Origin: Lyngbya sp. CCAP 1446/10
GTDB lineage: Bacteria > Cyanobacteriota > Cyanobacteriia > Cyanobacteriales > Microcoleaceae
Direction of reading: 5' to 3'
Length of the DNA: 64,000 nt
NCBI RefSeq assembly: GCF_026130175.1
Contig: NZ_JAIGNI010000015.1
Location: 1-64,000 of the forward strand
Part shown: in pieces, positions 36,877 to 40,245 of the stretch
Layout: every line of letters starts with the position of its first letter
How positions within the stretch are numbered: the first letter of the stretch is position 1
Program-made: the position numbers and the translations under genes
Notes under the pieces: model-generated
The model's input: only the letters and a program-made list of their open reading frames with translations
The model's database searches: none
Told to the model about the DNA's origin: nothing

Positions 36877-38256
36877 TTAGTCCAAATCAGGCATAGACAG
36901 CACAGCTTCATTTTCGCGATTGATACCTCTTTCAAAGCCAGCGACAGCCGCGCGAGCGCGACCAGCGTGCCACAAGTGGCCGACCAAGAAGAAGAAACCC
37001 ATCACAAAGTGGAAACAGGCCAACCAAGAACGGGGAGAAGTATAGTTAAAGGCATTAACTTCAGTTGCCAAGCCGCCCACAGAGTTCAAAGAACCCAAAG
37101 GAGCGTGAGTCATGTACTCAGCAGCTCGGCGAGCTTGCCAAGGCTGAATATCGTTCTTGATTTTGTTCAAGTCCAAACCGTTAGTACCGCGCAAGGGTTC
37201 CAACCAAGGGCCTTGGAAATCCCAGAAACGCATCGTTTCACCGCCGAAAATGATTTCGCCAGTAGGAGAGCGCATCAGGTATTTACCCAGACCGGTAGGG
37301 CCTTGTGCAGAACCGACGTTAGCACCCAAGCGTTGGTCGCGGATCAGGAAGGTCAAAGCTTGCGCTTGAGAAGCTTCCGGGCCCGTCGGGCCGTAAAATT
37401 CGCTAGGGTAAGCAGTGTTGTTGAACCAGACAAAGCAGGCGGCGATGAAACCCATAAGGGACAAAGCGCCCAAGCTGTAAGACAGGTAAGCTTCACCAGA
37501 CCAGATTAAAGCGCGGCGAGCCCAGCCGAAAGGCTTGGTCAAAATGTGCCAAACACCGCCACCGATACAAATCAAGCTGAGCCAGATGTGACCGCCGATG
37601 ATGTCTTCCATGTTGTTGACGCTGACAATCCAGCCTTCGCCACCAAAAGGAGAGCGAGTCAAATAGCCAAAAATCACAGCGGGGTTGAGGGTTGGGTTCG
37701 TGATAATACGCACGTCGCCACCACCTGGAGCCCAAGTGTCATAGACACCGCCGAAGAACATGGCCTTAGCCACCAGCAGCAAGCAACCGCCACCCAATAA
37801 AATCAGGTGATAGCCGATGATGTTGGTCATCTGGTTCTTGTCTTTCCAGTCGTAGCCGAAGAAGGAAGAGTATTCTTCGAGAACTTCTGGGCCGCGAACG
37901 GCGTGATAAATGCCGCCCAAACCGAGAACAGCAGAGGAAATCAAGTGCAGAACACCGACTACGAAGAACGGGAAGATATCAATAACTTCACCGCCGGGGC
38001 CGACGCCCCAACCCAAAGTAGCGACGTGGGGCATCAAGATTAAGCCCTGTTCGTACATGGGTTTTTCTGGGATAAAGTGAGCGACTTCAAACAAAGTCAT
38101 TGCTCCAGCCCAGAAAACGATCAAACCAGCGTGAGCGACGTGTGCGCCCAGCAGTTTGCCTGAGAGATTGATTAAACGAGCGTTGCCTGACCACCAAGCG
38201 AACCCGGAGGATTCTTGGTCGCGACCGCTTGCGTAGGAATTAGAGAGCGTTACCAC
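36877..38256 (-). CDS. psbC: Photosystem II CP43 chlorophyll-binding protein
   Basis: A 459-residue core-antenna protein of photosystem II with six membrane helices. [20 protein letters not shown], the large lumenal loop with [20 protein letters not shown] (CP43 Glu and Arg near the Mn cluster) and [16 protein letters not shown] are intact. The start is GTG at 38256 giving MVTLSNSY, with GGAGG about 10 bases upstream. In most cyanobacteria this GTG lies within the end of psbD; here 162 bases separate the two genes, and the leader retains a fossil of the psbD end. Confidence 0.98.
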
Positions 38257-38418
38257 GCGGTAGAACCTCCAACGATGTTAGGTTTAGGTTTTGGATTTCG
38301 GTTTTTTTGTTCCCCAGTAGGGTACGGGAGTACCGCGCCTGCGCTGGGGAATAGGGATTTGGATTTCAATTTGAATTTAAAAAACTTAAATTAATCTGAA
38401 ATCCAAATCCTGATTTTT
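38257..38418 (-). promoter_or_regulatory. psbD-psbC spacer with fossil psbD end and two hairpins
   Basis: Bases 38242-38271, read on the minus strand, encode EVLPRGNAL and a stop, the same as the last nine residues of psbD, in the frame that overlaps the psbC start. A hairpin with arms GGATTTGGATTTCA (38355-38368) and its exact complement (38397-38410) follows the psbD stop. A second, TTCCCCAG...CTGGGGAA with an inner GGTAC/GTACC stem, lies near 38309-38350. They could end or process the psbD transcript. Confidence 0.8.
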
Positions 38419-39477
38419 TTAAAGTGCGTTACCGCGAGGCAGAACTTCTTCTGGGAAGATGAAGTTTTCGTGGGGTTGGTCGGTCGGAGCCATCCAAGCA
38501 CGGATGCCTTCGTTAAGCAGAATGTTCTTAGTGTAGAACGTTTCAAACTCAGGATCTTCAGCAGCGCGCAATTCTTGTGATACGAAGTCATAAGCACGCA
38601 GGTTTAATGCTAAACCGACGATACCAATGGAGCTCATCCACAAGCCTGTGACGGGCACGAACAACATGAAGAAGTGCAACCAACGTTTGTTGGAGAACGC
38701 AATTCCGAAGATTTGCGACCAAAAACGGTTAGCTGTCACCATCGAGTAGGTTTCTTCTGACTGAGTTGGGTTAAAAGCTGGGAAAGTGTTAGCACCTTCG
38801 CCATCTTCAAACAGGGTGTTTTCTACGGTTGCACCGTGAATAGCGCACAACAGCGCGCCGCCCAAGATGCCTGCAACGCCCATCATGTGGAAGGGGTTGA
38901 GCGTCCAGTTGTGGAAGCCTTGCAGGAAGAGTAGGAAGCGGAAAATTGCTGCGACGCCGAAACTAGGGGCGAAGAACCAACCTGATTGACCCAAGGGGTA
39001 CAGCAGGAACACGGACACAAACACGGCGATGGGGCCGGTGAATGCGAGGGCGTTGTAGGGACGGATGCCGACTAAACGGGCAATTTCGATCTGACGCAGG
39101 CAGAAGCCGATCAGTGCGAAGGCGCCGTGAAGGGCGACAAATGTCCACAGGCCACCGAGTTGGAACCAGCGGGTGAAGTCCCACTGTGCTTCGGGGCCCC
39201 ACAGGAATAGCAGGGAGTGTCCGAGGCTGTTGGCTGGGGTGGATACTGCGACGGTGAGGAAGTTGGCTCCTTCGAGGTAGGAGCTTGCCAAACCGTGGGT
39301 GTACCAGGAGGTAACGAAGGTGGTGCCTGTCAGCCAGCCACCGATGGATAGGTAGGCGCAGGGGAATAGCAGGATGCCAGACCAGCCTACGAAGACGAAG
39401 CGATCGCGCTTGAGCCAGTCGTCGAGTACATCAAAGATGCCTCGTTCGGTCTGGGCGCGTCCGACTGCGATTGTCAT
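38419..39477 (-). CDS. psbD: Photosystem II D2 protein
   Basis: A 352-residue reaction-centre protein with five membrane helices. [20 protein letters not shown], the helix-D region with [20 protein letters not shown] (iron and quinone ligands), and the end [10 protein letters not shown] are standard. It is complete and probably functional. In many cyanobacteria one of two psbD copies overlaps psbC; this copy precedes psbC but does not overlap it. ycf4 is divergent, 200 bases away. Confidence 0.98.
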
Positions 39478-39678: not shown

Positions 39679-40245
39679 ATGACTGCAAAAACAATGACCT
39701 CGATCGATTCTGTCCTGCGCTACCAGGTTTTGGGCTCTCGTCGCTTCAGCAATTTCTGGTGGGGGACGATTGTCACCATTGGAGGCACTGGTTTCCTGCT
39801 GTCGGGCATTTCCAGCTACTTGCACGTGAACTTGCTGCCTTTTTCTGACCCGACTAAGCTCATTTTCATCCCCCAAGGCATCGCGATGGGTTTCTACGGT
39901 GTCTGCGGCGTGCTGTTGGCGCTTTACCTGTGGCTGACTATTCTCTGGGATGTCGGTGGCGGATACAATGAGTTCGATCGCAAAACAGGTAACATTCGGA
40001 TCTTTCGCTGGGGATTTCCCGGCAAAAACCGCAAAATTGATTTTACTTGCCAGACATCGGACGTGCAATCTGTGCGGGTCGATATTAAAGAAGGTCTCAA
40101 TCCCCGCCGCAGTATTTATCTTAAGCTCAAAGACCGCCGTCAGTTTCCCCTGACTAGAGTCGGACAGCCGATTTCTTTGTCTGATGTGGAAAATCAAGCT
40201 GCCGAATTGGCTCGATTTTTGCAAGTTCCCCTAGAAGGACTTTAG
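39679..40245 (+). CDS. ycf4: Photosystem I assembly protein Ycf4
   Basis: A 188-residue membrane protein with two helices (about residues 25-45 and 65-90), FSNFWWGTIVTIGGTGFLLS and GIAMGFYGVCGVLLALYLWL. WDVGGGYNEFDRKTG follows. Ycf4 is a scaffold for photosystem I assembly in thylakoids. The ATG at 39679 is preferred over a GC-poor upstream codon at 39658. Divergent from psbD, as in other cyanobacteria. Confidence 0.96.
   Translation: MTAKTMTSIDSVLRYQVLGSRRFSNFWWGTIVTIGGTGFLLSGISSYLHVNLLPFSDPTKLIFIPQGIAMGFYGVCGVLLALYLWLTILWDVGGGYNEFDRKTGNIRIFRWGFPGKNRKIDFTCQTSDVQSVRVDIKEGLNPRRSIYLKLKDRRQFPLTRVGQPISLSDVENQAAELARFLQVPLEGL

Follow-up and report, generated by a model that had tools for sequence, protein, structure and literature searches.

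In most of the cyanobacteria sampled here psbC (CP43) begins within the end of psbD (D2), the two genes sharing 17 nt, and tobacco plastids have the overlap as well. It has been used as an argument for coupled translation. In the window, by which we mean the whole stretch of 64,000 nt analysed from Lyngbya sp. CCAP 1446/10, psbD is followed by psbC on one strand with ycf4 adjoining, as in the canonical operon; however, the overlap is absent, the psbD stop codon ending at 38419 and the psbC GTG lying at 38256. The leader and start of psbC can be read as another psbD end, which raises the question of how the two genes came apart and why a piece of psbD stands in front of psbC.

A relic of the psbD 3' end at the psbC start

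On the minus strand, GAGGTTCTACCGCGTGGTAACGCTCTCTAA at 38240-38269 reads EVLPRGNAL-stop in the psbD frame (Table 1). An earlier note on this DNA had recognised this copy, although it placed it 2 nt off, at 38242-38271; the true psbD end lies exactly where the note had it, at 38419-38448. The two copies differ at six sites (GAA/GAG, CTG/CTA, CCT/CCG, CGC/CGT, GCA/GCT and CTT/CTC) and, as the note had also observed, all six are third codon positions of the psbD frame. Four of these differences would break psbC in an overlap: GAA destroys GGAGG, CGC destroys GTG, and GCA and CTT alter second codon positions of psbC.

Table 1. Features of the psbD-psbC locus, in window coordinates.
Feature	Position	Strand	Remarks
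psbD (D2), operon copy	38419..39477	-	TIGR01152, E 5.7e-232; tail type
Self-standing 3' end of psbD, without Shine-Dalgarno and GTG, GAAGAAGTTCTGCCTCGCGGTAACGCACTTTAA	part of 38419..39477	-	
True psbD 3' end, EVLPRGNAL-stop	38419..38448	-	
psbD-psbC intercistronic region, 162 nt	38257..38418	-	ancestrally none (17-nt overlap)
Hairpin 1 (GGATTTGGATTTCAG / AAATCCAAATCC)	38355..38410	-	almost unchanging across the genus
Hairpin 2	38310..38351	-	sequence varies in the genus, with compensatory changes
Old psbD 3' end kept as a relic (EVLPRGNAL-stop), today's psbC start region	38240..38269	-	
Upstream, non-coding stretch of the relic with one extra base, made up of GGAGG Shine-Dalgarno (38266-38270) and 9-nt spacer	38257..38270	-	
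psbC (CP43), GTG start within the relic	36877..38256	-	TIGR01153, E 5.2e-262
ycf4, divergent neighbour, marker of the ancestral psbD-psbC locus	39694..40245	+	Ycf4 identity confirmed

Because 17 of the 30 relic nucleotides (38240-38256) are psbC's own first codons, which would be conserved in any case, only the 13 nt of Shine-Dalgarno and spacer (38257-38269) are independent evidence. With up to three mismatches allowed, the window has a single occurrence of the 17-mer GAGGTTCTACCGCGTGG, where 0.12 would be expected, and the 9 nt between Shine-Dalgarno and GTG fit the psbD codon pattern TNYTNCCNC at all six informative sites, a pattern matched by 0.05% of window 9-mers. The match is beyond chance. 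The stronger argument is one of positional homology, as the relic lies exactly where psbD ends in overlapping relatives.

The piece is homologous to psbD and no longer encodes D2, a complete psbD ending upstream of it. The proposal that it is an old psbD 3' end, the present psbD having a different and self-contained one, is borne out. 'Fossil' is essentially a fair description, except that the piece still functions: it contains the only plausible psbC initiation site (GGAGG 9 nt ahead of GTG, followed by VVTLSN), and over half of it codes for psbC. Positions 38257..38270 are unchanging in the genus alignment apart from two columns. An assembly artefact is ruled out, since the complete chromosome of Microcoleus vaginatus HSN003 (L025) has the same junction, which is also found in other genomes of one or few contigs.

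Distribution of the split junction

At every readable junction of Microcoleus, Tychonema and Kamptonema the genes are 84-168 nt apart and the relic is present, in the form GGAGGTT[C/A]TACCG[C/G/A]GTGG, and 19 spaced rows from these genera form one clade in the psbC tree (support 95). The ancestral 17-nt overlap is kept in other genera of the family (g3, g5, g6, g8 and g10), in agreement with the claim that psbC and psbD once overlapped here; g1 and g7 are spaced. Comparison with relatives, which share both spacer and relic, did not refute the earlier reading, but the relic is not peculiar to this genome, and the restriction of changes to third positions does not extend to all relatives. Some relics differ at other positions as well (CCGGGTGG, CCGAGTGG, GTTATACC), as expected of a piece that no longer codes for D2.

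Among 60 further junctions sampled across the class, 10 are split (L212, L220, L221, L223, L225, L226 and L231-L234) and the remainder overlap, three with an apparent 4-nt gap (L210, L211, L216) being counted as overlaps with an extrapolated start. Decay of the relic is graded: it is near intact in L220, where 14 psbD codons are kept, intermediate in L212 (EVLHRANVI-stop), L231 (EEVKPRDN) and L234 (VEVLSCD), and unrecognisable in f28 and L233. Coleofasciculus and Symplocastrum (L051, L055) provide a further split case. On the psbC protein tree (118 rows) the split state requires eight changes, three of them forced by well-supported branches; the figure of eight is not firm, since the tree is built on one gene and many of its nodes are weak. 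An entire clade shares the split, which occurs again in several other cyanobacterial lineages.

One junction (L223; G128:C116:7083-7563) has three copies of the psbD tail ahead of psbC, and the middle one forms an in-frame fusion with a hydrophobic stretch (ELLLTLLLALGLVVGTIVFVFFYKG...) without a Pfam match.

In Trichodesmium-type genomes (g11; L069, L073, L079, L082, L116) the operon psbD is gone, and a decayed 3' piece of it lies between ycf4 and psbC, which in several of these genomes are about 600 nt apart, compared with about 1440 in the window. The 44-53 decayed codons (51-68% identity, mostly with stops) reach the psbC GTG, and a complete psbD lies elsewhere where the assembly shows it. 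The remnant shows independently that psbC's needs preserve the psbD 3' end once D2 coding has been lost. Apparent remnants in Okeania and in Planktothrix G047 were set aside, as N at the breakpoints (L075, L117) and contigs that end at the psbD repeat indicate probable assembly joins. Such assemblies seem misjoined at the duplicated psbD, a warning for surveys of operons in short-read genomes.

Two psbD copies and their tails

The second psbD that the earlier note had suggested looking for was found in the window genome as a solo gene (C169:7334-8389). Its protein is identical to that of the operon copy and 12 of 1056 nt differ; the psbD proteins of other genomes show 99% identity or less. This is the pattern of concerted evolution, which has been reported for psbD paralogues over about 2.6 Gyr (PMC6053082).

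The 3' ends of psbD fall into types. GAGG and GTG are both present in 92 of 93 overlapping tails; GAGG is absent from 28 of 31 split-operon tails and from 22 of 27 solo or other tails. These counts are drawn from non-independent rows, and there may be some truncated contigs among the solo or other tails. Over the last 30 nt, psbD1 and psbD2 differ at 1-8 sites (mean 5.7) in six overlap genomes, though their bodies are often nearly alike, and at 0-3 sites (mean 1.75) in twelve split genomes.

In G036 (g7) the two copies do not differ between about nt 849 and the end of the stop codon, nor over the next 15 nt, into the spacer, so that the psbD2 3' flank (L154) and the psbD1-psbC spacer (L113) share their first 15 nt, like a conversion tract across the stop. 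Transfer between psbD copies can thus carry a tail together with its flank, although the donor there may have been psbD1 and not psbD2. Homology between the psbD2 3' flank and the spacer is absent from the window genome and from most pairs checked, G036 being the only one to share these 15 nt.

The intercistronic spacer

The spacer folds into two hairpins (MFE -53.8, z -5.6). Double-changed cells number 21 over the whole structure; shuffles give 7.9 and slid controls no more than 9. The hairpin at 38310-38351 shows compensatory base changes across Microcoleus. The spacer may act in processing or stabilising the mRNA between the two cistrons. The promoter scan of the psbD-psbC locus gave one sigma-70-like minus-strand site, upstream of psbD, and the promoter and terminator scan of the spacer gave nothing.

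No second copy of the spacer was found in its own genome, where the best matches besides its own inverted repeat have E 0.08 or worse, and the hairpin motif has one weak other match there. A search of the spacer against Rfam gave no match that reached the gathering threshold; the inverted repeat had weak microRNA matches, rejected as chance. The last third of the spacer resembles the heptamer AAAATCC, and a degenerate form of it stands at the spacer's end (38271-38300). The heptamer has 57 near matches in the window genome (G000), compared with four for a reversed control.

How the overlap may have been undone

We consider it rather likely that the operon psbD gained a 3' end of its own, gene conversion being the probable route and the solo copy the probable partner, and that selection kept the old tail for psbC initiation. 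The 17-nt overlap would have been undone in the ancestor of Microcoleus, Tychonema and Kamptonema, when the operon psbD took up an entire 3' end of the psbD2 type, along with some DNA from beyond it, and left its original tail in front of psbC. That tail would have been protected from loss because it holds the GGAGG, spacer, GTG and first codons of psbC; outside this function it drifts, as its role in coding D2 is over. Translation of psbD would now finish at 38419, and psbC would be initiated at GGAGG-9 nt-GTG within the relic, from an autonomous leader, 162 nt past the psbD stop in the window. The new psbD end, of solo-psbD tail type and free of psbC signals, would let concerted evolution reach the stop codon. 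The earlier note had proposed that psbD was replaced or displaced by another copy. Displacement does not hold, since the order ycf4-psbD-psbC is retained and at most the 3' end was replaced; replacement is plausible but unproven, because the same pattern would result if the tail had been duplicated and had then drifted or been homogenised.

The tail types and differences and the tract in G036, taken with the published concerted evolution of psbD, favour replacement of the tail by conversion, local duplication also being possible. Tandem duplication or slippage of the tail, after which the spacer expanded, the upstream copy became the psbD end and the downstream one stayed with psbC, would need no paralogue; psbD2-type codons in the psbD1 tail could then derive from drift or later homogenisation. 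The three consecutive tails of L223, which show repeated tail acquisition of some kind, fit such a course, as do the spacers of most genomes, which have no paralogue flank, and the split f28 genomes, in which a single psbD was found, a point that counts against conversion. In the window genome itself, conversion with flank is not directly visible because nothing in the spacer is homologous to the psbD2 3' flank. However, the functional and middle tails of L223 are both unlike the psbC-type relic, and the window spacer does not repeat psbD or psbC sequence, its matches in its own genome being weak apart from its own inverted repeat. We regard duplication as a serious but unlikely alternative.

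A small mobile or repeat element that inserted into the tail of psbD and duplicated the tail end at its target site could account for the long inverted repeat and for a spacer ending in a heptamer common in the genome; however, the spacer is single-copy in the window genome, a 30-nt target duplication would be unusual and the spacers of other lineages share nothing obvious with it, which makes this origin very improbable. We give still less credence to the view that there is no relic at all, the spacer having always been present and the likeness being a by-product of psbC's conserved start (Shine-Dalgarno, GTG, VVTLSN). A generic GGAGG and the large share of psbC codons in the relic are compatible with it, but genera of the same family overlap and the 9-nt spacer still spells psbD codons. 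The graded relics, with 14 psbD codons upstream of psbC in L220 and far more in Trichodesmium-type genomes, largely refute it.

A more general reading, which we advance tentatively, starts from a conflict: the overlap opposes psbD concerted evolution because the operon tail must retain the psbC start signals. The conflict may have been resolved repeatedly, and by the same route in unrelated lineages, through a paralogue-type operon tail and a free-standing psbC module. If so, an overlap that ranks among the most conserved in photosynthesis has been lost in the same way several times over. The split is also a clade marker and an example of how overlapping coding restricts gene conversion between paralogues. 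The repeated loss of the overlap with only Shine-Dalgarno and GTG kept is a natural experiment on what the psbC start needs, and split junctions imply that coupling by overlap is dispensable.

Comparison with known systems

Literature searches of open-licence papers found none describing the split or the relic. In cyanobacteria and plastids the overlapping psbD(I)-psbC operon has the same genes, order, ycf4 neighbour, Shine-Dalgarno-GTG module and GUG start of psbC, the last shown in tobacco, where psbC begins at the corresponding GUG and requires an extended Shine-Dalgarno (Kuroda 2007, as cited in PMC9845219). In the window, by contrast, 162 nt separate the end of psbD from the psbC GTG, and a separate copy of the tail serves as the module. 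Translation of psbC in tobacco is essentially uncoupled from psbD initiation, or at most marginally coupled to it (PMC8133689), and the start module should therefore be able to stand alone.

The identical psbD1 and psbD2 proteins of the window, encoded by genes with 12 differing nt in 1056, parallel the published concerted evolution of psbD paralogues (PMC6053082). The main text of that paper mentions neither psbC nor the overlap; here the overlap tail is where the copies stay different, and splitting lifts the barrier. Remnants of psbD near psbC are also known from the Rhopalodia spheroid body (PMC2246100). There, both genes are pseudogenes, dead after the loss of photosynthesis, whereas in the window both are intact and the remnant is in use.
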